This document shows positions 3 through 21,286 of a stretch of DNA of 26,434 nucleotides, one piece after another (within the stretch, counting starts at the first letter, position 1; each line of letters begins with the position of its first letter). Location: positions 1 through 26,434 of IMG/VR virus record IMGVR_UViG_3300037584_004532. One strand, given 5' to 3'. This DNA comes from a virus. The position numbers were made by a program, and so were the translations under genes. The notes beneath the pieces were generated by a model, which ran no database searches, was not told where the DNA came from, and saw only the letters and a list, made by a program, of their open reading frames with translations.

Positions 3-2450
3 ATATTTAAGAATTATGCTTATGTTCGAGATGGTAGTGGTCAATACCAATCTATCTATGGAGATAAGTTAAAAAAAGTTACATATTGGACAGAAGAAGA
101 TTTCAGAACTGGTCGTGTATTTGAATCAGATATACCTTTAGATACTCGTATTCTTTTAGATAGATATGAGGATTCGGATGAGCCGTCAAAAGACCATCGT
201 GAATTATTTTTTGATATTGAGGTAGAAGTTACAGATGGTTTTCCTGAACCATCAAAGGCAGCAAACAAAGTTACTTCGGTTGCTATGTATACAAAATACG
301 ATGAAAAATATCGTGTCTATGTTTTAGGTGAAGGTCAAGATAATATTAAAGATGGTGTTGATATTCGTTTTTACCAAACCGAAAGTCAATTATTACAAGA
401 GTTTTTAAAGTATTGGATAAATGTCCAACCAACTTGTGTTACAGGTTGGAATACAAATGGTTTTGATATTCCTTATCTATACAACCGAATAACAAAAGTT
501 TTAGGTGAGGAGTTTGCTAACGCCCTTTCACCAATACAAATCGTAAGATATAATCCAAATAAAAAGATGTATCGTATCGCTGGTGTAAGTTCATTAGATT
601 ATATGGATTTATATAGAAAGTTTACATATACTCAACAATCAAGTTATAGATTAGACCATATCGGAACTATCGAAGTTGGTATAGGTAAGGTTGAATATGA
701 AGGAACACTTGATGATTTATATAGGGATGATATTGATAAGTTTATTGAGTATAACTTAAATGATGTTGAGATTGTTAAGGCACTTGACCAAAAGTTCAAG
801 TTGTTAGACTTGGCTCGTGCTGTATCTCACTTGGGTAGAATACCTTATGAAGAGGTATATTTTAGTTCAAGGTATATCGAAGGTGCTATGCTAGTTTATC
901 TTCGTAGTTTAGGTTTAGTTGCTCCAAGTAAGTTACCTACTGCTAGTTACGATGGTTCAGAGGGTAGGTTTAGTGGTGCTTATGTAAAGTCACCAGTTCC
1001 TGGTTGTTACGATTGGGTGTTCGATTTAGATTTAACTTCTATGTATCCAAGCATTATTATGTCTCTGAATATGTCGCCTGAGACAAAGATAGGTAAGATA
1101 AATGGTTGGGATGCTGAAGAATTTATTAGAGGGGAAGATAAACATTATTCCGTAGAGAAGGATAAGAAAGTTATCAGAACCTTTACAAGTGGGGAACTCA
1201 AAGATTTCTTTGGGAAAAATCAAATATCCATTTCATCAAATGGAGTCTTGTATGACCTAAGTAAGAAAGGTGTTATACCGGCGATACTTGAGAAATGGTT
1301 TAATGAGAGAGTAGAGTATAGGAAATTAGCAAAGAAGTACGAAACCGAAGGTGACCAAGAATTACATGGTTACTTCAACAGAAGGCAGCTGGTACAAAAG
1401 ATTTTACTTAATAGTTTGTACGGAGTATTGGGCTTAACCGTATTTAGATTTTATGATATTGATAACGCTGAAGGGACAACCACCACTGGTCAGAAACTTA
1501 TTCAGTTTACAGAAAAGGTTACAAATAGTTATTATAATAAAATCTTAAAAACGGATAAAGATTATTGTATCTACACAGATACAGACTCGGTTTTCTATTC
1601 TGCTCTTCCACTTGTTAAAAATAGATTTCCAAAAGCTGATGTTAAAGATGAAGAGTTTATGACAGAACAAATCCTTGATATTGCTAGTGAGGTTCAAGAT
1701 TATATCAATAAGTCTTACAACTACTTCAGTAGTAGGTTCTTAAATATACAAGGTGACCATCGTTTTGAGATTAAACAAGAGATGATTGCTAAGGCTGCTT
1801 TTTGGGTTACCAAGAAAAGATATGGTCAATGGATTATTAATGATGGTGGAACACCTTGTGAAAAACTTGATGTTAAAGGTTTAGATATTGTCCGTAGTTC
1901 ATTTCCACCAGCATTTCGTGACTTTATGACTAAGGTTCTAAAAGCTATCCTTGCTAAAGTTCCCAAAGAAAGAATAGACGAGTTTATCCTTGAGTTTAAG
2001 GGTAATCTAAAAAATGAAGAGTTGGATAAGATTGCTCTTCCAACCGGCGTAAAGGGTATCCAAAAATACACCAAGAAAAAAACTAAAGGTGGATTTGGTG
2101 TTAATGGTAAAAGTATATTTACTGAGATGGAAAAGGGTGCTCCTGTTCATACGAAAGCTTCGGTTATTTACAATGACTTACTAAGATACTTCAATGCGAA
2201 TAATCACGAAGCAATATCAAATGGTAATAAAGTTCGTTGGGTTTATCTAAAAGAAAATCCACTTAAAATAGATGGACTTGCTTACAAAGGTTATGATGAT
2301 CCTAAACAAATCATAGATTTTATCAATCAGTATGTAGATAGAGACAAGTTATTTGATAAAGCCCTAAAGAAGAAGATACAGATGTTTTATGACGCTATGT
2401 CTTGGGATATGCCGGTTGATAAAAATAACTCAATTGAAAGGTTTTTTTGA
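3..2450 (+). CDS. 43: Family-B DNA polymerase, T4 gp43-like (5' partial)
   Basis: Replicative DNA polymerase with 3'-5' proofreading. The reading frame is open to the window edge, so the true start lies upstream; by comparison with T4 gp43 only about 40 N-terminal residues seem missing. Exonuclease motifs: Exo I Asp-Ile-Glu at 213-221, Exo II in TGWNTNGFDIPYLYNR, Exo III in YNLNDVEI. Polymerase motif A (DLTSMYPS) is at 1029-1052, motif B (KILLNSLYG) at 1398-1424, and motif C (YTDTDS, both catalytic Asp present) at 1572-1589. The protein ends NNSIERFF followed directly by TGA. In T4 and RB69 the extreme C-terminus of gp43 binds the sliding clamp, and N-x-x-I-x-x-F-F has the spacing of a PIP-like clamp-binding peptide, so this tail very likely docks on the clamp encoded at 3250. 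An internal ATG at 285 is not the start, because Exo I lies before it. Confidence 0.97.
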   Translation: MFKNYAYVRDGSGQYQSIYGDKLKKVTYWTEEDFRTGRVFESDIPLDTRILLDRYEDSDEPSKDHRELFFDIEVEVTDGFPEPSKAANKVTSVAMYTKYDEKYRVYVLGEGQDNIKDGVDIRFYQTESQLLQEFLKYWINVQPTCVTGWNTNGFDIPYLYNRITKVLGEEFANALSPIQIVRYNPNKKMYRIAGVSSLDYMDLYRKFTYTQQSSYRLDHIGTIEVGIGKVEYEGTLDDLYRDDIDKFIEYNLNDVEIVKALDQKFKLLDLARAVSHLGRIPYEEVYFSSRYIEGAMLVYLRSLGLVAPSKLPTASYDGSEGRFSGAYVKSPVPGCYDWVFDLDLTSMYPSIIMSLNMSPETKIGKINGWDAEEFIRGEDKHYSVEKDKKVIRTFTSGELKDFFGKNQISISSNGVLYDLSKKGVIPAILEKWFNERVEYRKLAKKYETEGDQELHGYFNRRQLVQKILLNSLYGVLGLTVFRFYDIDNAEGTTTTGQKLIQFTEKVTNSYYNKILKTDKDYCIYTDTDSVFYSALPLVKNRFPKADVKDEEFMTEQILDIASEVQDYINKSYNYFSSRFLNIQGDHRFEIKQEMIAKAAFWVTKKRYGQWIINDGGTPCEKLDVKGLDIVRSSFPPAFRDFMTKVLKAILAKVPKERIDEFILEFKGNLKNEELDKIALPTGVKGIQKYTKKKTKGGFGVNGKSIFTEMEKGAPVHTKASVIYNDLLRYFNANNHEAISNGNKVRWVYLKENPLKIDGLAYKGYDDPKQIIDFINQYVDRDKLFDKALKKKIQMFYDAMSWDMPVDKNNSIERFF
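2430..2448 (+). repeat. 19-bp direct repeat, copy 1 (polymerase tail)
   Basis: The sequence TCAATTGAAAGGTTTTTTT encodes SIERFF plus the T of the stop codon at the end of the polymerase. It recurs identically at 3173-3191 at the end of the methyltransferase, in the same reading frame. This copy also supplies the ribosome-binding site of the methyltransferase gene. The two copies bracket the methyltransferase with a 743-bp period. Confidence 0.95.
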
Positions 2451-3193
2451 TGTATAATTTAATTAAAGGTGATTGTTTAGAACTATTGGATGACATAGAT
2501 GACAATTCAATTGATATGATTGTATGTGATTTACCATACGGTCAGACTAAAAATAAATGGGATAGTGTTATTCCATTGGATGAATTATGGGAACATTATA
2601 AAAGGGTTATTAAAGATAATGGTTGTATAGCTTTATTTGGTCAAGGTATGTTTACAGCAGATTTGATGTATTCAAATAAAAAGTGGTGGAGATATAATTT
2701 GATTTGGGATAAAGTTTTAATCAATGGTCATTTAAATGCTAACAAGATGCCGTTGAGAAGCCACGAAGATATCGTTATATTTTATAATCAATTACCAACA
2801 TACAATCCACAAAAAGTTATGGGTAAAAAAAATCATACAATCGGTAGAGGGATGTTGAATAAAAATAATAATTATGGGAATTTCGTTTTAGTTGATAACA
2901 AGAATAAATTAGGGAATATGAAACATCCAAAATCCATATTATCATTTTCAAGGCCTCATTCATCCGTTATGAAACATCCTACCGAAAAATCTGTTGAGGT
3001 ATGTGAGTGGTTAATTAAATCATACACGAATAAAAATGAAGTGGTTTTAGATAATTGTATGGGAGCTGGCACGACAGGTCTTGCGTGTAGAAATACAAGT
3101 AGAAAATTTATAGGTATTGAGATGGATGATAAATATTTTAAAATTGCGGATGAGAGAATAAATAAAAAAACTTCAATTGAAAGGTTTTTTTAA
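2450..3193 (+). CDS. DNA methyltransferase (N6-adenine/N4-cytosine, beta-type order) with clamp-binding-like tail
   Basis: SAM-dependent DNA amino-methyltransferase of 247 residues. The catalytic motif DLPY is at residues 27-30 and the SAM-binding motif DNCMGAGTTG at 201-210. Catalytic motif before SAM motif is the order of the beta class (N6-A or N4-C). The target sequence cannot be read from the protein. The ATG overlaps the polymerase stop (TGATG). The ribosome-binding site is GAAAGG at 2436-2441, inside the polymerase's last codons. The last residues, KKTSIERFF, repeat the polymerase tail exactly over six residues, encoded by an identical 19-bp sequence, which suggests the enzyme is brought to the sliding clamp or replication fork. 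No restriction endonuclease gene adjoins it, so it is probably a solitary phage methylase for self-marking or evading host restriction (inference). Confidence 0.93.
   Translation: MYNLIKGDCLELLDDIDDNSIDMIVCDLPYGQTKNKWDSVIPLDELWEHYKRVIKDNGCIALFGQGMFTADLMYSNKKWWRYNLIWDKVLINGHLNANKMPLRSHEDIVIFYNQLPTYNPQKVMGKKNHTIGRGMLNKNNNYGNFVLVDNKNKLGNMKHPKSILSFSRPHSSVMKHPTEKSVEVCEWLIKSYTNKNEVVLDNCMGAGTTGLACRNTSRKFIGIEMDDKYFKIADERINKKTSIERFF
3173..3191 (+). repeat. 19-bp direct repeat, copy 2 (methyltransferase tail)
   Basis: Second exact copy of TCAATTGAAAGGTTTTTTT, again encoding SIERFF immediately before a stop (TAA here, TGA in copy 1). Recombination between the copies would remove the methyltransferase and leave an intact polymerase C-terminus directly upstream of the clamp promoter. 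Confidence 0.95.
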
Positions 3194-3194
3194 C

Positions 3195-3223
3195 TTGACT
3201 TTTACAAAAATAATCAGTAAATT
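3195..3223 (+). promoter_or_regulatory. Promoter for the clamp/clamp-loader operon
   Basis: TTGACT at 3195-3200, a 17-bp spacer, then TAAATT at 3218-3223. Transcription would start near 3230, leaving a leader of about 20 nt with GGAGA at 3236-3240 before the ATG at 3250. The same hexamers with the same spacing recur at 12157-12185, also in an intergenic gap, which strengthens both calls. The elements resemble a host sigma-70 type promoter more than the T4 middle or late motifs. Confidence 0.7.
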
Positions 3224-3249: not shown

Positions 3250-3972
3250 ATGAATAAAATCACATTAGATACCTTTATCCAAAAGTATAATCTTGGTGGT
3301 AGTATAAATTCAGTAAAGTGGGAGTCTAACGGCGACACACTTTCTACTCGTTTTATATCACCGGACAAAAGTCTTTTGGGTGAGTTATCACTAAGTAAAC
3401 AATCACTTCCAAACTTTGAGGTTGGTGTCTATGATACACCATTACTATCAAAGATGATGGGAACACTTGCTGATAAAGTTGATTTCAGTTTAACTAAATC
3501 ACCATCGGATGATGAACAACCAGTAGCATTTAACTTTACAGATGGTAAAATATCTGTTGATTATGTTCTTGCTGCTCTTGGTGTGATACCTGATGTACCA
3601 GAACTAAAGAACATTCCTGAGTTTACTACTCTTGTCAATATTGATACTCAATTTATCAATTCTTTTATTCGTGGTAAAGGTGCTTTATCCGATGTAGAAC
3701 ATTTTTCTATTCAACCGGCAGATGGTGGTGTAGAGTTCGTTATCGGTTTTAGTGACATTAACTCAAATCGTATCAGTATTAAAGTTCAAAGTGGTGCTGT
3801 AAAGTTAACTGAACCAATCGTCTTTAATGCTAACCTATTCAAAGAAGTTCTAAGTGCGAACAAAGAATGTTCCAAAGCAGTTCTTCAGGTTGCTGATAAA
3901 GGTCTTGCTCACATCGAGTTCAAGATAGATGACTTTAATGTTAAGTATTACTTAGTATCACAGCAGGTATAG
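3250..3972 (+). CDS. 45: Sliding clamp, T4 gp45-like
   Basis: DNA polymerase processivity factor of 240 residues, close to T4 gp45 (228). In the family three subunits form a ring around DNA that holds the polymerase and, in T4, also activates late transcription. Clamps carry no catalytic motif, so identification rests on overall character: the gp45-like N-terminus (MNKITLDTFIQKY), two acidic domains of alternating strands, length, and position directly before the clamp-loader ATPase. It has its own promoter (3195-3223) and a good GGAGA ribosome-binding site, consistent with the high dosage a ring protein needs. Two genes just upstream end in a likely clamp-binding peptide (SIERFF). The next gene starts two bases after this stop codon. 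Confidence 0.92.
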   Translation: MNKITLDTFIQKYNLGGSINSVKWESNGDTLSTRFISPDKSLLGELSLSKQSLPNFEVGVYDTPLLSKMMGTLADKVDFSLTKSPSDDEQPVAFNFTDGKISVDYVLAALGVIPDVPELKNIPEFTTLVNIDTQFINSFIRGKGALSDVEHFSIQPADGGVEFVIGFSDINSNRISIKVQSGAVKLTEPIVFNANLFKEVLSANKECSKAVLQVADKGLAHIEFKIDDFNVKYYLVSQQV

Positions 3973-3973
3973 T

Positions 3974-4882
3974 ATGAGTTCACACGGATTATGGGTAGAA
4001 AAGTATAGACCTCAAGATTTAACAACTTATGTTGGTAATGAAAACCTTAAAACTAAGGTTGAGAGGTTTATAGAAGAACAAAATGTTCCACATCTACTAC
4101 TGTATGGTAGAGCCGGTGGGGGTAAAACAACCCTTGCCAAGATTATCGTAAATTCAATTGAGTGTGACTATCTCTATATCAATGCCTCCGATGAGAGAAA
4201 TATTGATTTGGTTAGAGACAAACTAAAAAGCTTTGCTTCTTCGGTTGGTTTCAAACCAAACAAAATAGTAATCTTGGATGAGTCTGATTATCTCAATGTT
4301 AATTCAGCTCAACCGGCTCTTCGTAATCTTATGGAGACATTTTCTGCTCATTGTAGATTCATCTTAACTTGTAACTATGTTGAGAAGATTATCGACCCGA
4401 TTCAGAGTAGATGTCAAACTTACAAAATCATTCCACCATCAAAGAAAGATGTTGCTGTTCATGCCAAGTATATCTTGGAACAAGAGAACATCTCATTTGA
4501 TTTGGATGATTTGGCTTTGGTTGTAACTGCTGGTTATCCTGACTTAAGAAAAGTTATCAATGACCTACAAAGACAATCGGTAGATGGTAAGTTAAAGATA
4601 GACAAAGATGGTATGTTACATAACGAGTTTAAACTTCAGTTCTTAGAGATGATACAAAATGGTGTTGATTTAAGAACTATCCGTAAGTTTGTAGCTGATA
4701 GTAACTTTACAGATTATACAGAACTATATCGTTTCTTGTATGATGAGGTAGAAAACATATCAGTTGAAAAACTACCAGAAGTTATTGTTGACATATCAAA
4801 TGGTGCTTATCAAGATGTTCTATGTGTTGATAAAGAGATAAACTTTATTGCGACCATTTCTAATATTCTAAGGAGAGTATGA
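3974..4882 (+). CDS. 44: Clamp loader large subunit (AAA+ ATPase), T4 gp44-like
   Basis: ATPase that opens the sliding clamp and loads it at primer-template junctions, acting as a complex with gp62. The 302 residues compare with 319 in T4 gp44. The N-terminal WVEKYRP box, Walker A GRAGGGKT at residues 45-52, Walker B/DExx box ILDESD, and the SRC arginine-finger motif (QSRCQTY) are all visible and intact. The C-terminal part is helical, as in RFC/DnaX-type loaders. It follows the clamp gene by one base and overlaps the next gene at its stop (TGATG), so the four genes 45-44-zinc ribbon-62 form a translationally coupled unit. Confidence 0.95.
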   Translation: MSSHGLWVEKYRPQDLTTYVGNENLKTKVERFIEEQNVPHLLLYGRAGGGKTTLAKIIVNSIECDYLYINASDERNIDLVRDKLKSFASSVGFKPNKIVILDESDYLNVNSAQPALRNLMETFSAHCRFILTCNYVEKIIDPIQSRCQTYKIIPPSKKDVAVHAKYILEQENISFDLDDLALVVTAGYPDLRKVINDLQRQSVDGKLKIDKDGMLHNEFKLQFLEMIQNGVDLRTIRKFVADSNFTDYTELYRFLYDEVENISVEKLPEVIVDISNGAYQDVLCVDKEINFIATISNILRRV

Positions 4883-5124
4883 TGAAGATGAAACAAAGAA
4901 AACCATTACCCAAGCAACAAGTTCAAGTAGATTTGACAGAAGCAGATACAATGTCTTGTCAAAAGTGTGGAAATAAAATCTTTATACAAGGTTATATAAT
5001 AAAGAAGATTTCTGCTATACTTTCCCCAACCGGAAAGGAAGTAGTAGCACCTATACAAGTATTTAACTGTGGAAGTTGTGGTGAATTATTGCCAATGGGT
5101 GGGGAGATGGATGAACTTATTTAG
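4882..5124 (+). CDS. Small zinc-ribbon protein between clamp-loader genes, unknown function
   Basis: An 80-residue protein with two CxxC pairs (C26/C29 and C63/C66) about 33 residues apart, the usual layout of a zinc ribbon. The stretch between the pairs, with ISAILSPTGKE and PIQVF, looks beta-stranded. ATGs occur at 4879, 4882 and 4888. The strong AGGAG at 4871-4875 favours 4882, which also gives a TGATG overlap with gene 44. Its placement inside the 44-62 pair suggests a replisome-associated or transcription-related role, but this is inference. The gene for the clamp-loader small subunit starts inside its last codons. Confidence 0.75.
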   Translation: MKMKQRKPLPKQQVQVDLTEADTMSCQKCGNKIFIQGYIIKKISAILSPTGKEVVAPIQVFNCGSCGELLPMGGEMDELI

Positions 5125-5530
5125 TTGGATAGATGAGCTATTTGTCAAGAAAAGACCTTGGGATAGTTTTTCAGATGAAGACAAAAAGAAGTTTAGTCCA
5201 TTTATGGTAAATCGTTATCTAAGTATGAACAATGATTTTCTACCAATAGTGAATCACTTTCAGAAGCTAACGATTGAGGTAATGCCGATAGGAGTGGTAT
5301 ATAAGTTTTACTGCTCCTTATTACCAAACAAGAAAACATTCTTGAGATACCTTAGTGGAAAGAAAACCAAAACAAACGAAAAGGTTGTTCCTTTCATACA
5401 AGAGTATTTTGAGGTTAGCAAGTTACAGGCAAGTGAATACTATAACTTAATGACTAATGATGAGTTAAGGTTACTATTAAAGCAATATGGTAAAACAGAC
5501 AAAGAAATAAAAAAGATGGGTGTTAAATGA
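5111..5530 (+). CDS. 62: Clamp loader small subunit, T4 gp62-like
   Basis: A 139-residue protein matching the gp62 character: an early FSPFMVNRYLSMNNDFLP segment typical of gp62 in marine T4-like phages, an all-helical composition and a lysine-rich tail. It is shorter than T4 gp62 (187). In T4 one gp62 joins four gp44 subunits to make the clamp loader. An upstream in-frame ATG at 5069 exists, but it would overlap the zinc-ribbon gene by more than 50 bases. The ATG at 5111 has GGGGAG just before it (short spacing) and overlaps the previous gene by only 14 bases. Identification rests on the conserved segment and on gene order, as gp62 has no catalytic motif. Confidence 0.82.
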   Translation: MNLFSWIDELFVKKRPWDSFSDEDKKKFSPFMVNRYLSMNNDFLPIVNHFQKLTIEVMPIGVVYKFYCSLLPNKKTFLRYLSGKKTKTNEKVVPFIQEYFEVSKLQASEYYNLMTNDELRLLLKQYGKTDKEIKKMGVK

Positions 5531-8363: not shown

Positions 8364-8614
8364 TGGCAAGTATGAGAGATGATTTAATACAAGCAAGTAG
8401 ATTACACTTTGAAGCTCACATCGAAAAACACAGAATTAATGTAGAAAATTTATTAGACAATGGTGTTGGTGTTGCAGAACATCCTGATATTATGGATACG
8501 ATAGAAAAAGAACTAGCTATAATATCTGAATATGATGATAAGCTAAACGCACTAAAAAAATATTTTCCATTATATACTACATATAAAAAAAATAAAGAGG
8601 TTATAAATGGCTAA
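8363..8614 (+). CDS. Conserved small helical phage protein, unknown function
   Basis: An 83-residue, predominantly helical and charged protein. The blocks IEKHRINVENLLDNGVGVAEH and DTIEKELAIISEYDDKL resemble a small protein family I associate with T4-like marine phages; no function is known to me. Two long amphipathic helices joined by the glycine-rich GVGVAEHPD turn suggest a helical hairpin or coiled coil. It overlaps the previous stop (TAATG) and runs eight bases into the next glycosyltransferase gene. Confidence 0.7.
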   Translation: MASMRDDLIQASRLHFEAHIEKHRINVENLLDNGVGVAEHPDIMDTIEKELAIISEYDDKLNALKKYFPLYTTYKKNKEVING

Positions 8615-9968
8615 GAAAAAGATATTGTTAATGTCTGATGACTTACGGATGCATAGTGGAGTAGCTACTGTATCTAAAGACATTGTATTTGAGACATTAC
8701 ACCAATATGATTGGGTTCAGATGGGTGGAGCTATCAAGCATCCTGAAGCTGGAAAAGTTATCGACATGTCAGAACATCTTCAAAAAGATTTTGGTATAAA
8801 AGATGGATACTTGAGAATATATCCAGTTGATGGTTATGGTAACGAAGATTTACTTAGAGATGTTATTGCTATGGAAAAACCAGATGCTATACTTCACTAT
8901 ACAGATCCAAGATTTTGGATTTGGTTTTATAACATGGAAGCAGAAATTCGTAGAGATATTCCTATCTTTTATTACAATATATGGGATGACTTACCAGATC
9001 CACAATACAATACAAACTACTACAAGAGTTCTGATTTATTGATGGGTATATCAAAACAAACTTATGGAATCAATAAAAGATTATTACCTGATTATGAAGA
9101 TTGGCAAATAACTTATGTACCACATGGTATATCAGAAAGAAGATTTAACAAGGTAGAAGATGATAATGTTTCTTTGATTGATTTTAATTCTAAACATGGT
9201 GTTGCTGATAAGAAGTTTAAGATACTTTATAGTAATAGGAACATCAGAAGAAAACAACCTGGTGATGTTTTATTGGCATACAAATACTTTATGGATGGTT
9301 TAACACCTGAACAAAGAGAAGAGTGTGTATTAGTATTTCATTGTTCACCAGTTGATGATAACGGAACAGATTTACCAAGAGTTCATAAACATTTGTGTCC
9401 TGAATACGATGTACGTTTTACATATGAAACAGATGGACGACCTTTTAATGATAATGAAATGAATTTACTTTTTAACTCAGCTGATGTTTATATTAACTTG
9501 GCTAGTAATGAGGGATTTGGATTAGGTAGTGCTGAAGCTCTTACCGTTGGAACACCAATTATTGTTAATGTTACAGGTGGACTACAAGATCAATGTGGGT
9601 TCAAGAAAGATGGTAAGTTTTTAACACCTGAAGATTATGTTGAGTTGGGTTCTAATCATAAAGGAACTTATACAGAACATGGAGAATGGGTATTTCCTGT
9701 TTATCCAACTAATAGTTCACTTCAAGGTTCACCTATGACACCTTATATCTTTGATGATAGATGTCAGCCAGAAGATGCTGCTATTCAGTTAAAGAAACTA
9801 TACGACTTAGGTAGAGAAGAAAGAAAAAGACTTGGTTCATTAGGAACTGAGTTCTGTAAAAAAAATCTAATGACATCAAAAGCTATGGGACAAGAGTTTA
9901 TTAATTCTATGGATGGAGCATTTGATAATTGGAAACCAAAACCAAAATACACGATGGAGGCAGTATGA
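8607..9968 (+). CDS. GT-B glycosyltransferase, GT4-like
   Basis: A 453-residue glycosyltransferase of the two-Rossmann (GT-B) fold. The C-terminal half carries the nucleotide-sugar-binding pattern of family 4: FKILYSNRNIRRKQPGDVL at the domain hinge, then SADVYINLASNEGFGLGSAEA with an intact EX7E motif (E-GFGLGSA-E), followed by GTPIIVNVTGG. The N-terminal start KKILLMSDDLRMHSGVATVS contains the short glycine turn expected for acceptor binding. No membrane segment or signal peptide, so it is cytoplasmic. AGAGG lies upstream of the ATG, and the gene overlaps the preceding one by eight bases. It is the first of two adjacent GT4-like enzymes. Acceptor and sugar donor are unknown. Confidence 0.9.
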   Translation: MAKKKILLMSDDLRMHSGVATVSKDIVFETLHQYDWVQMGGAIKHPEAGKVIDMSEHLQKDFGIKDGYLRIYPVDGYGNEDLLRDVIAMEKPDAILHYTDPRFWIWFYNMEAEIRRDIPIFYYNIWDDLPDPQYNTNYYKSSDLLMGISKQTYGINKRLLPDYEDWQITYVPHGISERRFNKVEDDNVSLIDFNSKHGVADKKFKILYSNRNIRRKQPGDVLLAYKYFMDGLTPEQREECVLVFHCSPVDDNGTDLPRVHKHLCPEYDVRFTYETDGRPFNDNEMNLLFNSADVYINLASNEGFGLGSAEALTVGTPIIVNVTGGLQDQCGFKKDGKFLTPEDYVELGSNHKGTYTEHGEWVFPVYPTNSSLQGSPMTPYIFDDRCQPEDAAIQLKKLYDLGREERKRLGSLGTEFCKKNLMTSKAMGQEFINSMDGAFDNWKPKPKYTMEAV

Positions 9969-11320
9969 AACGCTCGGTAGTTATGATTGCACCTTTTAAT
10001 ACCCGTAGTGGTTATGGTGACCATGCTCGTTCAATCTATTATTCTATCATGGATAGGGATGATTTAGACATTAAATGTTTAGATGTTAAGTGGGGTTCAA
10101 CACCTAGAAATCACTTACGACCTGAAGTCAAAAGACATCAGAGGTTGTTAAATAGTTTCACAACACAGGATAAAATAACAAGTCAACCTGATATTGTTAT
10201 TGATATTAGAATACCTAATGAGTTTATACAAGGTGGTAAAGTTAATATCGGTATAACTGCTGGTGTGGAAACTGATGTCGTATCTCCTCAATTTTTAGAT
10301 GGTATGAATAAGATGAATCTTAACATAGTACCATCTAAATTTACAGCAAACACATTTAATAAATGTACATTTGATAAAATGCAAGATGCTCCTAACGGAC
10401 AAAGACAAAAAGTCGGTGAGATAAAAAATGAAAAACCTATCAAGGTTTTGTTTGAAGGTGTAGATACGGATGTTTATTTTCCAAAAGAAAAACATCAGTT
10501 AGAAAAGAAGCTTTATGAAGAGTTGGATGAACTTATCAAAGAGGAGTTTGCTTATCTTCATGTTGGACAATGGGGAAAACAAGGTTTCGGAGAGGATAGA
10601 AAAAACATCGGTGTTATGATTAAATCTTTCTTAAAAGCTTTTGCTAATATTACTAATCCACCCGCACTTGTTCTTAAAACTAACGGTGCTAACTTTAGTG
10701 TTCTTGACAAGGTTGATATAAAGAAAAGAATACAAGAAGTTAAAGATATGTTTAAGGGAGTTGAGTTACCTAATATTTATTTAATACATGGTGATTTTAC
10801 TATTCAAGAAATGTCAACACTTTATAATCATAAAAAGATTGGTGCTTTTATTACTTGTACACACGGTGAAGGTTTTGGACGACCAATGTTAGAAGCTAGT
10901 TGTTGTGATTTACCTGTAATTGCTAGTAAGTGGAGTGGTCATCTTGACTTTCTTACAGACGCTGAGTCTATGTTAATTGACGGGTTTATTAAACCAGTTC
11001 CTAAATCAGTTCTATGGGATCCTATTATTATAGAACCATCTAAATGGTTTGATGTAAATGAAGCTGATGTGGTTAGAAAGATTAGAACTTTTCATAAGAA
11101 AAGAAAACTAATACAAAAGAAAGCTAATCGTCTAGGTAAGAAAAACAGAAGAGAGTTTTCATTAGAAGCTATGTCAAAAGAGTTTAATAAGATTATAGAT
11201 GATGTATTAAAATCAGTTCCACAACCTATTAGTTTGAAACTACCTAAACTTAAAAAAGTTGGTGGTGAATCTCCACAATCAGCAAAGATAAAACTACCTA
11301 AATTAAAGAAGGTGACATAA
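9965..11320 (+). CDS. GT-B glycosyltransferase, GT4-like, with repeated basic tail
   Basis: A 451-residue GT-B glycosyltransferase. The donor-site block ITCTHGEGFGRPMLEASCCDLPVIAS holds an intact EX7E motif, and HVGQWGKQGFGEDRKNIGVM marks the start of the C-terminal domain. An in-frame ATG at 9929 exists, but the start at 9965 is preferred because GGAGG (9956-9960) precedes it and it forms an ATGA overlap with the previous gene. The last 30 residues are an unusual low-complexity basic tail with two exact copies of KLPKLKKV (residues 425-432 and 443-450) linked by GGESPQSAKI. Such a tail could bind acidic lipid head groups, nucleic acid or a partner protein (inference). It acts in the cytoplasm; acceptor unknown. 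Confidence 0.9.
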   Translation: MKRSVVMIAPFNTRSGYGDHARSIYYSIMDRDDLDIKCLDVKWGSTPRNHLRPEVKRHQRLLNSFTTQDKITSQPDIVIDIRIPNEFIQGGKVNIGITAGVETDVVSPQFLDGMNKMNLNIVPSKFTANTFNKCTFDKMQDAPNGQRQKVGEIKNEKPIKVLFEGVDTDVYFPKEKHQLEKKLYEELDELIKEEFAYLHVGQWGKQGFGEDRKNIGVMIKSFLKAFANITNPPALVLKTNGANFSVLDKVDIKKRIQEVKDMFKGVELPNIYLIHGDFTIQEMSTLYNHKKIGAFITCTHGEGFGRPMLEASCCDLPVIASKWSGHLDFLTDAESMLIDGFIKPVPKSVLWDPIIIEPSKWFDVNEADVVRKIRTFHKKRKLIQKKANRLGKKNRREFSLEAMSKEFNKIIDDVLKSVPQPISLKLPKLKKVGGESPQSAKIKLPKLKKVT

Positions 11321-11736
11321 TGGATGATATGATACTAAAGGTAAAATGTCCAAATAACACAAAAGAATGTACTGTTGTTGGTGGTGAGATAATGGAGTCA
11401 ATGGTTTTATTGGGCGATGAAGAACAGAATATGCAGTGCTTAGCCTGTGGTTATGCTTCTAACAAAACTATGAAAACACATATAAAACCGTTTCCTGATG
11501 ATTTTAAAGAAGTATGTGTTGAAACAAATAAGGGTAGGTATTGGGCACCATCCGTTTTTACAACAGAAAATTATATGGTTGTTCCTTTAGTAGATGATGG
11601 TTTGAAATGGAGAGTTTATGCTCAAGCTGATCCTGCTACGGAAGTGATAATGCCTACATTTTCGGATGCTTTTAAAATGGTAGAAAAATTGGAGAAAGTT
11701 CTTGGCGAGCAGATACAACAACAAGCGAATAGTTAA
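11320..11736 (+). CDS. Hypothetical protein with zinc-ribbon-like N-terminus
   Basis: A 138-residue protein of unknown function. Four cysteines in the N-terminal third (C10, C17, and C40/C43 as CLACG) could bind zinc. The remainder, containing GRYWAPSVFTTENYMVVP and KWRVYAQADPATEVIMP, looks like a small alpha/beta domain. The ATG overlaps the preceding stop by one base (TAATG). The ribosome-binding site and TTG start of the next gene lie inside its last codons. I do not recognise the family. Its place between glycosyltransferases and another unknown gene gives little functional hint. Confidence 0.65.
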   Translation: MDDMILKVKCPNNTKECTVVGGEIMESMVLLGDEEQNMQCLACGYASNKTMKTHIKPFPDDFKEVCVETNKGRYWAPSVFTTENYMVVPLVDDGLKWRVYAQADPATEVIMPTFSDAFKMVEKLEKVLGEQIQQQANS

Positions 11737-12160
11737 ATCTGTTCAAACAATAGGTCGAGGTAGATTATTACCTGGTATGATAATTACATTTAATTACTCA
11801 GAACCAGGTGTTATGGATCCTAGACCTATTCTACTTTATCTAAATACAAATAAAGTAACTAAAAACATAGAAGGGTTGAATATAAACTATCTTAATCCAA
11901 CTAAGTTAAAAAAATTATTTAAGGTTGCTGACTTTAAAAAAACAGAAACGGATGAGGTAGAAAACTTAATCGGTTTAAAAGAAGAATACTTTAGATTACA
12001 GATTGCTAATCCAAAGAAAAGAAGTGCTATGACACCAAAAAGATTCTATGGTGATATTATATCAGCTGATAAATATTTTAAGGAAGCATACAGGTCATAT
12101 AAACTTACCAAATTAACATCCTTAAAGGTTACACAGATAAATACACAATTTATTACTTGA
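11702..12160 (+). CDS. Conserved phage hypothetical protein, TTG start
   Basis: A 152-residue basic protein. Features: GRLLPGMIITFNYSEP near the N-terminus, a DPRPILLYL strand, GLNINYLNP, and a C-terminal YRSYKLTKLTSLKV. This arrangement (P-G-M-I/V-T-F-x-Y, then PLV/I-L, then GLN-x-x-YL, then a YR-x-Y tail) recalls an uncharacterised protein family in many T4-like phages. TTG at 11702 is the best start: GGAG (11691-11694) sits 7 nt upstream, and the first in-frame ATG (11777) would cut into the PGMIITF block. It overlaps the previous gene by 35 bases and ends just before the operon promoter at 12157, so it closes a transcription unit. No terminator hairpin follows. Confidence 0.7.
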   Translation: MASRYNNKRIVKSVQTIGRGRLLPGMIITFNYSEPGVMDPRPILLYLNTNKVTKNIEGLNINYLNPTKLKKLFKVADFKKTETDEVENLIGLKEEYFRLQIANPKKRSAMTPKRFYGDIISADKYFKEAYRSYKLTKLTSLKVTQINTQFIT

Positions 12161-12185
12161 CTTTATCAACATTTTATGGTAAATT
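12157..12185 (+). promoter_or_regulatory. Promoter of the glycan operon (leaderless transcript predicted)
   Basis: TTGACT at 12157-12162, 17-bp spacer, TAAATT at 12180-12185, matching the promoter at 3195 in both hexamers and spacing. The -10 ends only six bases before the ATG at 12192, so transcription should start at or next to the A of the ATG. No Shine-Dalgarno-like sequence lies between. Confidence 0.7.
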
Positions 12186-12191
12186 ACACCA

Positions 12192-12827
12192 ATGAAAATT
12201 AGTTATTCTATATTAACCCACAACGAAACTACCACTCTTGAAAAGCTACTAAAGTTTTTAATTAAGTATAAACAACCACAAGATGAGATAGTTATCCTCG
12301 ATGATTATTCAGACAATGAAAAAACAAAAGCTATCTTAGATTTCTATGTATCCACCGAGAACATAGTATTTGAGCAAAGAAATCTTTTGGAAGACTTTGG
12401 TTCACAAAAAAACTATCTAAAGAATATGTGCAGTGGTGACTATAGTTTTAACTTGGATGCTGATGAGATGATTTCATCTTGGTTTATGGCAGACATCCAC
12501 GAGATACTTGAAGGTAATCCGGTTGATTTAATTTACTTACCGAGAGTAAATACCGTAAAGGGAATAACGGAACAACATTGTAGAATGTATGGGTATACAA
12601 TAAATGAAAGAGGTTGGATAAACTATCCTGATTGGCAAGGTCGTATTTTTCGTAACCGACCAAACATTCGTTGGGAAAAACCAGTTCATGAGCACCTTGT
12701 CGGTTTTCAAACTTATGCTCACCTACCAACAGAACATAAGTATTCTATTACCCACCCAAAAACAATAGAAAGACAAGTAGAACAGAATAAGTTTTATAAT
12801 GAAGAAATAAGTGGGATGAAGAAATGA
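12192..12827 (+). CDS. GT-A glycosyltransferase, family 2 (WaaE/KdtX-like)
   Basis: A 211-residue inverting GT-A glycosyltransferase. The start KISYSILTHNE, the VILDDYSDN block, and LDADE with the metal/nucleotide-binding D89-A-D91 are classic GT2. The segment DWQGRIFRN..NIRWEKPVHEHLVG resembles the WaaE/TPR-associated subgroup, which often transfers to LPS core heptose. The ATG lies about six bases after the promoter -10 with no ribosome-binding site, implying leaderless translation; the nearby upstream ATG at 12176 is out of frame. First gene of the long glycan operon, overlapping the next by ATGA. Confidence 0.9.
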   Translation: MKISYSILTHNETTTLEKLLKFLIKYKQPQDEIVILDDYSDNEKTKAILDFYVSTENIVFEQRNLLEDFGSQKNYLKNMCSGDYSFNLDADEMISSWFMADIHEILEGNPVDLIYLPRVNTVKGITEQHCRMYGYTINERGWINYPDWQGRIFRNRPNIRWEKPVHEHLVGFQTYAHLPTEHKYSITHPKTIERQVEQNKFYNEEISGMKK

Positions 12828-13720
12828 AAATATTAGTTGCTGGTGGTGTTGGATTTGTGGGTACTAACTTAATAAAAAGATTATTAAAAGATGGGCATGA
12901 AGTATCATCAGTAGATAACTATTCTACTGGATTTAAAGAAAATCATCAAGATGGTTGTACATATTATGAGCATGATTTGTCAAGTAAACATACACTTGGA
13001 ATATATGTAGACCATGAAACTTATCCATCTTGGAGAGATAATGAATTTGATTTAATATTTAATGTTGCTGCTTTAGCTAGGATACAGCCATCATTATCAG
13101 ATCCAGTTAAGGCTATTAGTAATAACTTTAATAGTGCTCTTCATGTATTAGAATGGGCTAGAAAAAACAATACACCTGTAACATTTTCTGGTTCAAGTAC
13201 ACTACATCATGGTTTATGGGGTAGTCCGTATGCTTGGTCTAAATATGCTGGTGAACAATTATGTGAATTATATAATAAAGTTTATGACTTACCAACTGCT
13301 ATATGTAGATTTTACAATGTATATGGAGAACATCAATTGGAAGATGGTGCTTATGCTACAGTTGTTGGTATTTTTGAAAAACAATATCGTAATGGTAAAC
13401 CACTAACTGTTACCGGTGATGGGGAACAAAGACGAGATTTTACTCATATAGACGACATCGTTGATGGGTTAGTTCGATGTGGTCTTAGTTTATTAACTGA
13501 TGCTAAAGTATCCAATGGACAAGCTTATGAATTAGGTAGAGGTTTAAATTTTTCTATTAACGAGATAGCTAAAATGTTTGATGGTGCAGAGATTGAATAT
13601 ATTCCAGCAAGAAGAGGTGAATATCCGTTTACTTTAGCTGATTATACAAAGGCAAAAGAGGAACTAGGATGGATACCTAGTTTAAATATTAAAGATTACA
13701 TAAAAGGAGTTATCAGTTGA
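12824..13720 (+). CDS. NAD-dependent nucleotide-sugar epimerase/dehydratase (extended SDR, GalE-like)
   Basis: A 298-residue extended short-chain dehydrogenase/reductase acting on a nucleotide sugar. The NAD-binding GGVGFVG (GxxGxxG) is at residues 7-13, followed by an Asp (VDNYSTG) typical of NAD-dependent members. The catalytic Ser lies in SGSSTLHHG, and the Tyr-x-x-x-Lys pair in SPYAWSKYAGE. The downstream TGDGEQRRDFTHIDDIVDG block is the sugar-nucleotide-binding region of UDP-glucose 4-epimerase relatives. Reaction probably 4-epimerisation or 4,6-dehydration of a UDP- or dTDP-sugar; the substrate cannot be fixed. Linked by ATGA to the upstream transferase and by a TTG/TGA overlap to the next gene. 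Confidence 0.9.
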   Translation: MKILVAGGVGFVGTNLIKRLLKDGHEVSSVDNYSTGFKENHQDGCTYYEHDLSSKHTLGIYVDHETYPSWRDNEFDLIFNVAALARIQPSLSDPVKAISNNFNSALHVLEWARKNNTPVTFSGSSTLHHGLWGSPYAWSKYAGEQLCELYNKVYDLPTAICRFYNVYGEHQLEDGAYATVVGIFEKQYRNGKPLTVTGDGEQRRDFTHIDDIVDGLVRCGLSLLTDAKVSNGQAYELGRGLNFSINEIAKMFDGAEIEYIPARRGEYPFTLADYTKAKEELGWIPSLNIKDYIKGVIS

Positions 13721-14730
13721 AGGTAGCACTATTTTGGGATTCTGCGATTAATATAGATTCTTACTATGTTAAAAATGGAGAAGCTTTTAGTTATTGGACA
13801 GATAAACCATATAGCTTTCATCACTCTATGTCATCAAAATGTTTTCCGGTAATTCATAATTATCAATGGTTTGGTGAAGGGAGTAGTTTTTTAAATTTAA
13901 GTGAATGGGTTGATAGGGGAATAGATTTTCCTGAATTGGATGTTGATTTGATATTTTATGCTTGTGAGAGACAAGGATTAGATAATCATTGTTGGGATGA
14001 TTATAGTGTAGAGAGGATAAAGAAAAGATACCCTAATGCTAAAGTTATTGGTTCTTTAAAGGAAGTTAATGTTAGGGAACATAGAGTACAAAATAGATTT
14101 AAGTTTTTAAAATCATGTGATGACTTACATGCTGAATGTCCTAGAAATGAAGAAACAATGAGAGTTTTTGGTCCAATAGAAAAATATACTGGTATGAAAA
14201 TTAAATTCTTTAAACAACCACAGAATATTGATTATTATTATGAGAATTTTTATTCTAATGAAAAAATCAATGGTATATATGCTTACATTCCAAATCCATT
14301 ACATCGTAGAGGTAGAACTTATGAGTTTGCTAATTATATAGGGGATAAGTATGATTTACCTGTAAAAACTAAACCACTAAAAGATGGTCAGGACTTTGCT
14401 CATTTAGGTCATAAAGAATTTATAGATTTGTGGAGTCCTTACCTGTACCATTTTAATTTAGATCCCACTACAATACATCCTGGTACACAAGTTGTACAAG
14501 TTGCTATGGTCGGTTCAATTAATATAGGTGGATTAAATCATCACCATCACATATATTATCCAGAAACTGCTACTATTGATGAGGATGTTTTAGAAAAAAA
14601 GATAGTTGAATATATAAATAATCCTAAAAAAAGATTTGAAGTTATACAGAATGCTTGGACAAAGGTCAATGAGTTAAATAGTTTTAACTCGGTATATAAC
14701 GAAATACAGAAACATTGGGGAACATTATAA
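13717..14730 (+). CDS. Glycosyltransferase-like protein of uncertain family, TTG start
   Basis: A 337-residue soluble protein. No canonical glycosyltransferase motif (EX7E or a clear DxD) is visible. The overall plan could fit a GT-B fold: an N-terminal Rossmann-like KVALFWDSA, a central VIGSLKEVN strand, then a C-terminal half with YIPNPLHRRGRTYE and HPGTQVVQVAMVGSINIGG, where the last resembles a donor-binding loop. A run of four histidines (GLNHHHHIYY) follows. The TTG start at 13717 is supported by AGGAG at 13705-13709 and by overlap with the previous stop (TTGA). Its neighbours are sugar enzymes, which is the main reason for suspecting a transferase. Function otherwise unknown. Confidence 0.6.
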   Translation: MKVALFWDSAINIDSYYVKNGEAFSYWTDKPYSFHHSMSSKCFPVIHNYQWFGEGSSFLNLSEWVDRGIDFPELDVDLIFYACERQGLDNHCWDDYSVERIKKRYPNAKVIGSLKEVNVREHRVQNRFKFLKSCDDLHAECPRNEETMRVFGPIEKYTGMKIKFFKQPQNIDYYYENFYSNEKINGIYAYIPNPLHRRGRTYEFANYIGDKYDLPVKTKPLKDGQDFAHLGHKEFIDLWSPYLYHFNLDPTTIHPGTQVVQVAMVGSINIGGLNHHHHIYYPETATIDEDVLEKKIVEYINNPKKRFEVIQNAWTKVNELNSFNSVYNEIQKHWGTL

Positions 14731-16262
14731 TGGATGTTTTATTTATAAATCCAGGTAGCGCTAAAGATGTTTATCAAGGATTATCAACTGATTATTCTGG
14801 TATAGGAACACCATATTGGTTATTACTACTCTCACAATCTTGTAGATCACAAGGATATGAAGTTGGTGTTTTAGATGTATTAGCAGAAAAACTTTTATTA
14901 GACGATGCTATAACAAGAATTAAAGACCTCAATCCTAGACTTATCACATTTTGTGTTTATGGAGAAAATGTAAATTCAGGTACTACTCAGATGAGTGGTG
15001 CTGTGAGACTAGCTGATTTGTTAAAAGAGTGTGGAGTTGAGATACCAATATCATTTGTAGGCTCTCATGTTCAAGCATTACCTTACAAAGTATTAGATGA
15101 AGAGCCAAACATTGATATTATATTTACTAATGAAGGTGTGTATTCCCTTTGGAATATTTTAAAATTAGATGATTTGACAGATATAGATAAATTAAAGACT
15201 ATAAGGGGTATTGGTTTTATTAAAGATGATAAACCATTTTTAACTAAACCTGAAAAGATAGTTCCACAAGAAAGAATGGATATTGATTTACCAGGTTATG
15301 CTTGGGATTTATTACCTTATGATAAAAAACCATTTGATTTGTATCGTTCACCAATGTGGCATGGAGAATATGATCACGATAAAAGAACACCTTATGCTGC
15401 TTTATACACTTCATTAGGTTGTTTATTTCAATGTGAGTTTTGTATGATTAACATCCTCAACCGAGATGATTTGGATGAAGTGGGTGTTGCTGGTAATTAT
15501 AATAAAATGAGATTTTGGTCACCTGAATTCATAATTAAAGAGTTTGATAAGCTAGTTGAGATGGGTGTTGAGACTATTAGAATTGCTGATGAAATGTTTT
15601 TACTGAATCCAAAATACTATGTACCATTGACAGAAATGTTATCAAAAAGACCATATGCTGATAGATTAAGGATGTGGGCTTATTCAAGAGTTGATACCAT
15701 AAGAAGACCTGGTGTATTAAAATTATTAAGAAAAGCTGGTATTAAATGGCTATGTCTTGGAATAGAAAGTGCTGATAAGAATGTTAGATTAGAAGTTTCT
15801 AAAGGTAAATTTGAAGATGTGAATATCGTAGATGTTGTTAATCAAATTCATGATGCTGATATAGGTATAATAGCAAATTATATGTTTGGATTACCAGGAG
15901 ATACTCACGAAACAATGCAGAAAACTTTAGATTTGAGTTTGGAACTAAACACAATAGCTTGGAATGCTTATGCTGCTATGCCTTTACCTGGTAGTCAGTT
16001 ATATAAAAATGCTGTTGATGCTGGTATTGATTTACCAGAAGATTATGCTGGGTATTCGTTTCATGCTTATACTACAAAACCATTACCTACTGAAGATTTG
16101 ACACCTGAAGAAATATTAAGATTTAGAGATAAGGCTTATTTAATTTATCACAACGATAAAAAGTTTTTAGAAAAGGTTAAAAATACTTATGGTGATATAG
16201 CTGTTGATAATATAATTAAAAACACTAAAGTTAAATTAAAAAGAAAAATTTTAGGGGATTAA
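14730..16262 (+). CDS. Cobalamin-binding radical SAM enzyme
   Basis: A 510-residue protein. The N-terminal ~170 residues form a B12-binding-like Rossmann domain (VLFINPGS start, then FVGSHVQALPYKVL and NEGVYSLW, the usual GG-H...GEgE pattern in variant form). The radical SAM core follows, with the [4Fe-4S] motif CLFQCEFC (C231, C235, C238), a glycine-rich LGIESADKNV block and YMFGLPGDTHE. Relatives methylate unactivated carbon or phosphorus, or rearrange carbon skeletons; sugar C-methylation is the reading that best fits the operon (inference). The ATG at 14730 (TAATG overlap) is preferred over an in-frame TTG at 14715. The enzyme needs cobalamin from the host or its surroundings. Confidence 0.9.
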   Translation: MDVLFINPGSAKDVYQGLSTDYSGIGTPYWLLLLSQSCRSQGYEVGVLDVLAEKLLLDDAITRIKDLNPRLITFCVYGENVNSGTTQMSGAVRLADLLKECGVEIPISFVGSHVQALPYKVLDEEPNIDIIFTNEGVYSLWNILKLDDLTDIDKLKTIRGIGFIKDDKPFLTKPEKIVPQERMDIDLPGYAWDLLPYDKKPFDLYRSPMWHGEYDHDKRTPYAALYTSLGCLFQCEFCMINILNRDDLDEVGVAGNYNKMRFWSPEFIIKEFDKLVEMGVETIRIADEMFLLNPKYYVPLTEMLSKRPYADRLRMWAYSRVDTIRRPGVLKLLRKAGIKWLCLGIESADKNVRLEVSKGKFEDVNIVDVVNQIHDADIGIIANYMFGLPGDTHETMQKTLDLSLELNTIAWNAYAAMPLPGSQLYKNAVDAGIDLPEDYAGYSFHAYTTKPLPTEDLTPEEILRFRDKAYLIYHNDKKFLEKVKNTYGDIAVDNIIKNTKVKLKRKILGD

Positions 16263-16263
16263 A

Positions 16264-16935
16264 GTGACTTTACCAAAAAACTTTGTTAAACAGACTTATG
16301 ATAGACCAAATCAAAAAGGGTATGCTACTGCAGATACTTATTTTTTAGAAAGAGTTCTTGAAATAATAGATGAATATAAGATAAACAGAATAGTAGAATG
16401 TGGAACTTTTGAAGGTAGGTCAACTACCGAATTGTCTTTTTTGGTTGATGAGATAATAGGTATAGAAATTAAAGAAGAGTATGTTAGAAAAACTATCGAT
16501 AGATTAACAGATAATTCAAGAAGTAATTTTGAAATTATTAATGGCAGTTCACCACAAGTCTTATCCGAACTAACAACGACATTAGATTTTAGTAATACAA
16601 TTTTCTTTTTAGATGCTCATGTTAGTGCTGCTGGTATGGGTGGTGTAGCAGATTCATATTGGCCAATTAATGATGAAATAAAAGTTATTCCTAAAAATAA
16701 AGGTATAATTATGGTTCATGATATATATGTTCCTGGATGGGGTGATTTGGGTATACACGATTCTAATAGGTTAGGTTATGATACATATGTAGTTAATGGT
16801 GTAAAACAAAGGTTTGATTATGAGTTCATCAAAGATTCTTTGACAGATTGGAGTCCAATACATAGAATAGAATATAATAGAGGTGATAAATCTTCTGGTG
16901 ATTCTAGGGGTATTGGAATTATTTTTAACAATTAA
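16264..16935 (+). CDS. Class I SAM-dependent methyltransferase (sugar O-methyltransferase-like)
   Basis: A 223-residue methyltransferase. SAM-binding motif I is IVECGTFEGRST and the acidic post-I residue lies in IIGIEIKEEY. The later FFLDAHVSAAG and MVHDIYVPGWGD blocks contain Asp/His residues placed like the metal-binding sites of TylF/MycF-type sugar O-methyltransferases. Substrate unknown; a sugar hydroxyl is likely from context. GTG at 16264 is supported by AGGGG (16253-16257) with a 6-nt spacing. It begins one base after the preceding stop and is followed by a 15-base gap holding AGGAGA for the transketolase gene. Confidence 0.82.
   Translation: MTLPKNFVKQTYDRPNQKGYATADTYFLERVLEIIDEYKINRIVECGTFEGRSTTELSFLVDEIIGIEIKEEYVRKTIDRLTDNSRSNFEIINGSSPQVLSELTTTLDFSNTIFFLDAHVSAAGMGGVADSYWPINDEIKVIPKNKGIIMVHDIYVPGWGDLGIHDSNRLGYDTYVVNGVKQRFDYEFIKDSLTDWSPIHRIEYNRGDKSSGDSRGIGIIFNN
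16840..16868 (+). promoter_or_regulatory. Possible internal promoter before the transketolase genes
   Basis: TTGACA (16840-16845), 17-bp spacer, TAGAAT (16863-16868), inside the end of the methyltransferase gene and about 80 bases before the transketolase start. Good match to a housekeeping promoter, but coding context and AT-richness make coincidence possible. Confidence 0.25.
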
Positions 16936-16950
16936 TAGTAGGAGATAGAA

Positions 16951-17718
16951 ATGTCTAATGATATATTAAAAAACAAAGCAAAATCAGTTAGGAAAACTGT
17001 TTTTGAATTTAAAACTAGAGATGGTATAGGACATTTACATAGTTCATTATCACCTGTAGATGTTTTGGTTTCATTATTTTATGATAAAGAAACCATTTTT
17101 AACCATAATGAAGATATTGTAATTTTCGGTAAGGCTCACGGTTCGCCATCAATATATCCAATTTTAGCAGATTTAGGTTATTTTCCAAAAGACGAATTGG
17201 AAAAGTATTGCAGACCTGGTGGTATTTTAAGATTACATTCTGATTGGACAATACCTGGTTGTCACTTTGTGGGTGGTTCATTAGGTAACGGTATAGGTTA
17301 CGCTTCAGGTTTAGCTCATGGTAATAGAGATAAAAACATTTACTTGATAATGGGTGATGCTGAATTATATGAAGGATCTGTTTGGGAAAGTTTAATGTAT
17401 ATTTCACATCATAACTTGACCAATCTTAGAATAATTGTGGATAGAAATGGACTAGGTACTATTGGTGAAACAGAGAAGATGTTAAAATTAGAACCTTTAA
17501 AAGATAAGTTTAAATCATTTATCGATGATGTAGTTGAAATAGATGGACATGACTATGATAGTTTAAGAGATGTATTTTCAAAACAAAACCCACAGGTTAT
17601 TATTGCTAAAACCACAAAGGGTAAAGGTGTAAGTTATATGGAAGGAAAGTGGCAATATCACACGATTGTTCCATCAAGTCAAGAAGATATTAAAATAGGT
17701 TTAGAGGAATTATCATGA
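16951..17718 (+). CDS. Transketolase, N-terminal (thiamine diphosphate-binding) subunit
   Basis: A 255-residue protein equal to the first half of a transketolase. The thiamine diphosphate/Mg motif begins at G135-D136 (GDAELYEGSVWE) and ends with the Asn of VDRNGLG, about 30 residues on as expected. His residues in GHLHSS and GKAHGS correspond to active-site histidines of the family. AGGAGA precedes the ATG. The second half is encoded by the next gene, with ATGA overlap, so the pair forms a split transketolase. Split forms are common in sugar and antibiotic biosynthesis clusters. It would move a two-carbon ketol unit, making sedoheptulose 7-phosphate or adding a branch to a nucleotide sugar. 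Confidence 0.93.
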   Translation: MSNDILKNKAKSVRKTVFEFKTRDGIGHLHSSLSPVDVLVSLFYDKETIFNHNEDIVIFGKAHGSPSIYPILADLGYFPKDELEKYCRPGGILRLHSDWTIPGCHFVGGSLGNGIGYASGLAHGNRDKNIYLIMGDAELYEGSVWESLMYISHHNLTNLRIIVDRNGLGTIGETEKMLKLEPLKDKFKSFIDDVVEIDGHDYDSLRDVFSKQNPQVIIAKTTKGKGVSYMEGKWQYHTIVPSSQEDIKIGLEELS

Positions 17719-19629: not shown

Positions 19630-20102
19630 TAAAAGATGTACTAGAGTTTCAGCCTGATAAACACGAGGACTTTCGTGGTGATATTTATACCACTTGGAAC
19701 TCTGATAATTATCCAAATTTTAATTGGAGACTTGATAAGTTTGCTCACTCGACAAAAAATGTTTTAAGAGGATTACACGGTGATTTTAGCACATGGAAAC
19801 TTATAAGTTGTGTTCAAGGAAAATTGTATTATGTCTTAGCTGATAACCGTAAGGACTCACCAACTTATAAAAAATGGAACTGGTGGATATTGAGTGGTGA
19901 AAATAGAAAACAGATATTAACGCCGCCTGGATGTGGTGGTTCATATTTTGTATTAAGTGATGAATGTACATTTCATTATAAATTAGCATTTGATGGTGAT
20001 TATAATGATGTCGATAAACAATTTGTAATCAAGTGGGATGATCCTGAATGGGGGATAGAATGGCCACATAATAATCCAATATTGTTTTCAAGGGATAGAT
20101 AA
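19626..20102 (+). CDS. RmlC-like nucleotide-sugar 3,5-epimerase (cupin)
   Basis: A 158-residue cupin of the dTDP-4-keto-6-deoxyhexose 3,5-epimerase family. Hallmarks are RGLH (residues 48-51, catalytic His51), Lys58 in WKLISC, the DNRKDSPTYKKW block, LTPPGCGGSYFVLSDE and the FHYKL tyrosine segment. It probably epimerises the 4-keto sugar made by the preceding dehydratase. The RmlA/B/D partners for dTDP-rhamnose are not here, so the substrate is more likely the GDP-4-keto sugar, as for the GDP-heptose C3/C5 epimerases of Campylobacter (inference). The ATG at 19626 overlaps the previous stop (ATGA) and is preferred to the upstream in-frame TTG at 19611. Confidence 0.88.
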   Translation: MIKDVLEFQPDKHEDFRGDIYTTWNSDNYPNFNWRLDKFAHSTKNVLRGLHGDFSTWKLISCVQGKLYYVLADNRKDSPTYKKWNWWILSGENRKQILTPPGCGGSYFVLSDECTFHYKLAFDGDYNDVDKQFVIKWDDPEWGIEWPHNNPILFSRDR

Positions 20103-21252: not shown

Positions 21253-21253
21253 T

Positions 21254-21267: not shown

Positions 21268-21286
21268 TATAAACAAGAGGTTATAA

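Follow-up and report, generated by a model that had tools for sequence, protein, structure and literature searches.

The DNA methyltransferase gene between the polymerase and sliding clamp genes of this phage is, judged by sequence comparison, a horizontally transferred single-gene cassette. The match between the C-terminal tails of the polymerase and the methyltransferase is a direct repeat at the DNA level rather than a similarity of peptides only. We consider it very probable that a mobile methyltransferase cassette duplicated the 3' end of the polymerase gene, and that a working clamp tail would be a plausible by-product. The window analysed here comprises 26,434 nt, positions 1 to 26,434 of IMG/VR record IMGVR_UViG_3300037584_004532. 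Its replication locus contains the following features:

3–2450, + strand: family B (T4 gp43-like) DNA polymerase, 5' end cut by the window; Pfam DNA_pol_B (E 1e-37), PHROG 262 (E 1e-194)
2419–2448, + strand: left copy of the repeat, the polymerase 3' end; 2430–2448 is exact and the last 45 nt are identical to the empty-site phage L003
2436–2441, + strand: possible Shine-Dalgarno GAAAGG within polymerase codons, 8 nt from the methyltransferase ATG at 2450, suggested by sequence inspection
2448–2452, + strand: TGATG, polymerase stop overlapping methyltransferase start; the same in all five distinct cassettes
2450–3193, + strand: amino-methyltransferase of the PF01555 N6/N4 family, the cassette cargo; Pfam N6_N4_Mtase, 98.8 bits against a cut-off of 26.7
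3162–3191, + strand: right copy of the repeat, a polymerase 3'-end remnant fused to the methyltransferase reading frame; 22 nt identical to polymerase ends of another clade (KKTSIERFF)
3167–3190, + strand: C-terminal tail KTSIERFF of the methyltransferase; PIP-like, with h at position 4, FF at 7–8 and no Q at 1
3195–3223, + strand: sigma70-like promoter TTGACT-17-TAAATT upstream of the clamp gene, starting 1 nt past the methyltransferase stop; a consensus match only, 9/12
3250–3972, + strand: sliding clamp; AlphaFold pLDDT 92.4, Foldseek to PCNA E 3e-13, VIA-align Z 21.9 to Haloferax PCNA
3974–4882, + strand: clamp loader large subunit (gp44-like); Pfam AAA and Gp44_lid, PHROG 168 (E 1e-77)
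5069–5530, + strand: clamp loader A subunit (gp62-like); Pfam Phage_clamp_A, PHROG 225

A direct repeat and its empty sites

An earlier note on this DNA had described a hydrophobic hexapeptide at the ends of both enzymes and the gene order polymerase, methyltransferase, clamp. The shared end is real: the translations finish ...DKNNSIERFF (3–2450) and ...INKKTSIERFF (2450–3193), with the same DNA beneath the hexapeptide common to NNSIERFF and KTSIERFF. "Hydrophobic" was loose wording, as the residues are S-I-E-R-F-F. The order of the genes is borne out, with a clamp gene from 3250 whose product has a PCNA-like fold. Its predicted structure shows the two-domain PCNA/gp45-type architecture and superposes on Haloferax PCNA with an rmsd of 2.6 over 222 residues; no match to the clamp was found in Pfam, PHROG or NCBIfam models, though its fold is plainly that of PCNA. 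A search of named phages returned no near relative, the best matches being 46% for the polymerase (Microcystis phage Mel-JY01) and 34% for the clamp.

The 19-nt sequence TCAATTGAAAGGTTTTTTT occurs in exact copies at 2430–2448 and 3173–3191. The repeat extends to 27 of 30 nt (2419–2448 against 3162–3191) and directly flanks the methyltransferase gene. Two short C-termini may coincide by chance or convergence, and short peptides are prone to it; we give this reading next to no probability, given that 19 nt are identical in the DNA, that shuffled sequence yields 0.11 matches to the 19-nt repeat even with three mismatches allowed, that empty sites exist, and that the same remnant is found in unrelated cargoes. 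A chance match of the tails is thus ruled out by the DNA identity together with the shuffles.

Relatives of the polymerase and clamp were gathered from IMG/VR. Most have no methyltransferase gene at the junction: there are 111 empty sites (52 distinct sequences) in which the polymerase is followed by a spacer of about 20–70 nt and then the clamp, with no gene between. In L003, TCAATTGAAAGGTTTTTTT-AACTTGAC runs directly into the spacer. When the DNA between the repeats is deleted from the window in silico, the product is 98.1% identical over 159 nt to the L003 empty site. Since this deletion restores an L003-like site, the methyltransferase gene was inserted, its right border being the second polymerase end. 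The sigma70-like promoter (TTGAC...TAAATT) is likewise found, as a consensus match only, in the spacers of most relatives, 1 to a few nt past the polymerase stop.

Two further searches addressed the junctions themselves. The short pattern GAAARRTTTTTTTGATG proved too unspecific for the left junction, and a right-junction search (KxSIExFF plus TAACTTGAC) returned the known cassettes together with loci most of which had already been counted among the empty sites of the clade bearing this tail. In 18 related contigs of 24–160 kb, a DNA pattern for [S/T][I/L/V/M][E/D][K/R]FF-stop never occurs more than once in a contig; 14 have one and four none, and the sequences in those 14 agree with polymerase ends. 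Two general explanations of the tail were rejected. It is not a clamp-client tag of the phage group, for in the 130-kb contig G004 the polymerase alone carries it; two of the other loose PIP-like ORF ends in this contig resemble, by eye, a lytic transglycosylase and a glycosyltransferase. Nor is it a conserved peptide of the methyltransferase family, as the C-termini of relatives are unrelated and variable where the remnant sits.

Three unrelated cargoes and their movement between phages

Five distinct cassettes were recovered, and they hold three unrelated methyltransferase families at one polymerase–clamp site. Two loci (L083, L084) are window-like, with nearly the same methyltransferase in nearly identical phages (cassette body 99.9–100%), and L060 (3300044302_001019) has a methyltransferase 98.3% identical to that of the window but in a phage of a different clade. 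In L018 and L089 the cargo is an unrelated methyltransferase of the Dam family (PF05869), which ends KKTSIEKFF or KKTSIERFF. The third family is found in L236 (2420–2983, - strand), a PHROG 799 DNA methyltransferase ending KPNEKFF. All three families possess the polymerase-derived 3' remnant, and in every cassette the polymerase stop TGA overlaps the inserted gene's ATG. About 8 nt before that ATG, the last polymerase codons read GAAAGG, GAAAAG or GAAAGA, a possible ribosome-binding site. L236 was found with a pattern that requires TGATG, whereas L018, L089, L060 and the window-like loci came from clamp and polymerase searches free of this requirement. The source contigs are metagenome assemblies. 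A scan of genome contigs gave only two distant methyltransferases.

Identity within the cassettes greatly exceeds that of their surroundings. The window and L060 share 98.3% identity in the cassette body, compared to 82.4% in the polymerase 3' part and 89.9% in the clamp; for L018 and L089 the corresponding figures are 99.3%, 80.6% and 86.0%. Because the cargo is far more alike than its polymerase flanks, transfer of the cassette is horizontal, and its tail derives from the site of insertion. The locus thereby resembles a moron-like cassette, with presence or absence at a fixed site and cargo identity of 98–99% against 81–82% for the polymerase.

The borders of the cassettes differ in ancestry. 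For all but one of the five distinct cassettes, an empty-site phage from the same clade has a sequence identical to the left repeat copy. Another clade's polymerase ends, KKTSIERFF, match the remnant of the window (22/22), of L089 and, with one change, of L018, and both the remnant and the spacer of L060 are L007-like. L236 belongs by polymerase and clamp to the short-spacer clade L309–L314 (TAACATAAACAGGAG...), whose native spacer is short and promoterless; behind its cassette sits a long spacer typical of another clade. These foreign remnants and spacers indicate that the unit which travels between phages consists of the methyltransferase and polymerase remnant, sometimes accompanied by the spacer.

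The window's enzyme has the beta-class motif order in alignment, with DLPYG early (near residue 27) and DNCMGAGTT late (near 201). Its nearest solved structures are annotated as DpnA-like adenine methyltransferases, and PADLOC assigns it to type II or orphan methyltransferase models. There is no restriction enzyme in the insert. The enzyme would be expressed together with the polymerase and most likely modifies phage DNA as an orphan methyltransferase, either for protection against host restriction or as an epigenetic mark.

Proposed insertion route and possible clamp binding

On our account, a single-gene cassette entered exactly at the junction of the polymerase gene and the clamp promoter, and its insertion duplicated the last 20–30 nt or so of the polymerase gene. 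With the left copy the polymerase is complete, and the inserted gene probably takes its ribosome-binding site and TGATG coupling from the same copy. The right copy would have stayed between the cargo and the clamp promoter and, being in frame, become the last eight or so codons of the methyltransferase. As the promoter begins 1 nt past the stop, it appears that an insert can spare both the polymerase end and the promoter only through a duplicated polymerase end. The right junctions have short homologies (an A run in types 1 and 2, TGAAAAG in type 3), with which initial joining at microhomology would be compatible. The cassette may then have spread from one related phage to another when the polymerase and clamp sequences on either side recombined, and a crossover between the two repeats would excise it precisely. 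Against this account, no intermediate or donor was found, the insert holds no recombinase or nuclease, and the joining is inferred from the A-rich and TGAAAAG homologies.

A classical mobile element, leaving either a transposon target-site duplication or a homing endonuclease insertion, could also have placed the gene and duplicated its target. The flanking direct repeat would fit such an element, and homing endonuclease genes are often situated near phage DNA polymerase genes (PMC10448857). We nevertheless regard it as quite improbable: a single methyltransferase ORF and nothing else lies between the repeats, neither nuclease nor transposase was seen there, and the right remnant lies within the ORF with a start that differs between cargo types.

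The more consequential alternative is functional tethering, in which the methyltransferase would be brought to newly made DNA by its copy of the polymerase tail, bound to the phage clamp; this benefit would also be why in-frame methyltransferases keep settling at the site. C-terminal PIP peptides of T4-type polymerases bind gp45, and the PIP consensus is Qxxhxxaa (PMC3012046). The earlier note had proposed PIP-like spacing for the tail: the h residue and aromatics of KTSIERFF stand at positions 4 and 7–8, but the canonical first residue Q is absent, with K in its place. The polymerase tail fits this pattern apart from the Q and is conserved among relatives as [N/T/V/S][S/T][I/V/L][E/D][K/R]FF, with SLEAFFG (in Mosig), NLSKFFNFK and NSVAKFFSFGK in distant ones, and the clamp has the PCNA fold. 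The note had also raised the prospect that the methyltransferase tail is packed into the core; structure prediction instead places residues 241–247 outside it as a disordered segment (pLDDT <50) after the last helix at 227–238, although a low score would also be expected of a foreign, unaligned tail. DNMT1 bound to PCNA offers an analogous precedent (PMC9690074).

The cassettes themselves provide evidence on both sides. Each of the three families of cargo is a DNA methyltransferase family joined in frame to the remnant, an outcome of about 1/27 if frames are free and events independent, which is modest evidence. This is more orderly than blind insertion predicts and so leaves room for selection on the tail. 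Two of the five distinct cassettes speak against a working tail: the L060 remnant is read out of frame, ending KKFQSKGFFD, a reading that depends on one A in an A run of a metagenome assembly (six A's instead of five would give KKVSIERFF), and the L236 tail KPNEKFF has lost the Ile. DNA duplication alone also accounts for the tail identity; because the tail is a polymerase 3'-end remnant duplicated by the entry of a mobile cassette, its identity needs no selection for binding. Furthermore, with 10 and 3 codon changes within the cassette bodies of the two compared pairs, the cassettes are too similar, and too young, to reveal purifying selection on the tail. We treat tethering as possible but somewhat doubtful. 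A bolder version holds that the polymerase 3' end is a recurrent site that hands incoming methyltransferases a putative clamp peptide, giving fork tethering in one step, with selection keeping the site filled in frame; we advance it tentatively and judge it unlikely.

Some methyltransferase relatives may point to a comparable link with another clamp. The bacterial clamp motif is QL[S/D]LF, and relatives in other viral contigs (L145, L146, L147, L152 and L153) end in the similar QMKLF or QLTLF at the position of the tail, which lends the tethering reading some support. Judged by these termini, they are candidates for phage methyltransferases tethered to the host clamp. As a separate observation, seven T's precede the polymerase stop within window positions 2441–2450, and the methyltransferase frame is -1 relative to the polymerase frame with no stop between; slippage there would yield a hypothetical polymerase–methyltransferase fusion.

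Known systems and the wider window

Neither a mobile single gene at a phage replication locus nor a methyltransferase beside a polymerase gene is a new kind of arrangement. Similarly mobile single genes, sitting at fixed sites between conserved genes, are phage morons and the free-standing homing genes inserted close to replication genes (PMC2988022, PMC10448857). The present locus differs from them: it lacks a nuclease, its cargo is always a methyltransferase, and this cargo is fused to a second copy of the upstream gene's 3' end. Pelagibacter phage Mosig EXVC030M (MT647606) has an annotated adenine methyltransferase gene that starts at, and overlaps, the polymerase stop; it is of another type and ends KTKTNQKRN, with no polymerase-like tail. 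This methyltransferase (loci L305 and L307) has only about 100 residues across the record ends and may be truncated, or the record end may be imperfect. Xanthomonas phage PhiXhv-18 has a methyltransferase between helicase and polymerase.

With respect to the tail, the closest parallels come from other replication systems. The T4/RB69 gp43–gp45 pair (PMC3012046) likewise combines a polymerase C-terminal tail of a hydrophobic residue and aromatics with a PCNA-kind clamp, but here a second, unrelated enzyme has the same, putatively clamp-binding tail through DNA duplication. Eukaryotic DNMT1–PCNA (PMC9690074) is a DNA methyltransferase with a clamp-binding motif, the mechanism proposed here; DNMT1 is a cytosine methyltransferase with a motif of its own, whereas the phage enzyme is an amino-methyltransferase with a putatively clamp-binding tail derived from the polymerase. 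The plasmid-encoded single-strand methyltransferases M.EcoGIX and M.BceJIII and their partnership with DNA polymerase I (PMC7736820) also tie a mobile-element methyltransferase to the replication machinery. That partnership was shown biochemically, and these enzymes are not known to carry a polymerase-derived tail. The earlier note had considered a clamp-tethered methylase between these genes to be undescribed. A methylase beside the polymerase is not unique, as Mosig EXVC030M demonstrates, while no clamp-binding phage methyltransferase was found in the open-access literature. Nor did we find there a report of a methyltransferase acquiring the polymerase's clamp peptide, or of this occurring in unrelated cargoes at one site.

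The locus shows concretely how a short interaction motif can pass between unrelated proteins, namely by duplication of a gene's 3' end while a neighbour inserts. If the tail binds, these phages have evolved clamp-tethered DNA methylation analogous to DNMT1–PCNA, and their DNA records the mechanism. If not, the case clearly warns that a C-terminal peptide shared by two adjacent genes may be a scar of recombination. In both cases the junction is a place where methyltransferases have entered repeatedly, in a group of uncultured phages that has been widely sampled.

Beyond the replication genes, window positions 8607–26433 contain a long run of sugar and glycosyltransferase-type genes, based on translations read by eye. 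In a PHROG scan of a few ORFs, 8607–9968 matched a glycosyltransferase, and 14742–16259 and 16264–16932 had no match. By eye, the ORF at 14715–16262 is radical-SAM-like, and the consecutive ORFs at 16951–17718 and 17715–18662 resemble the halves of a transketolase.
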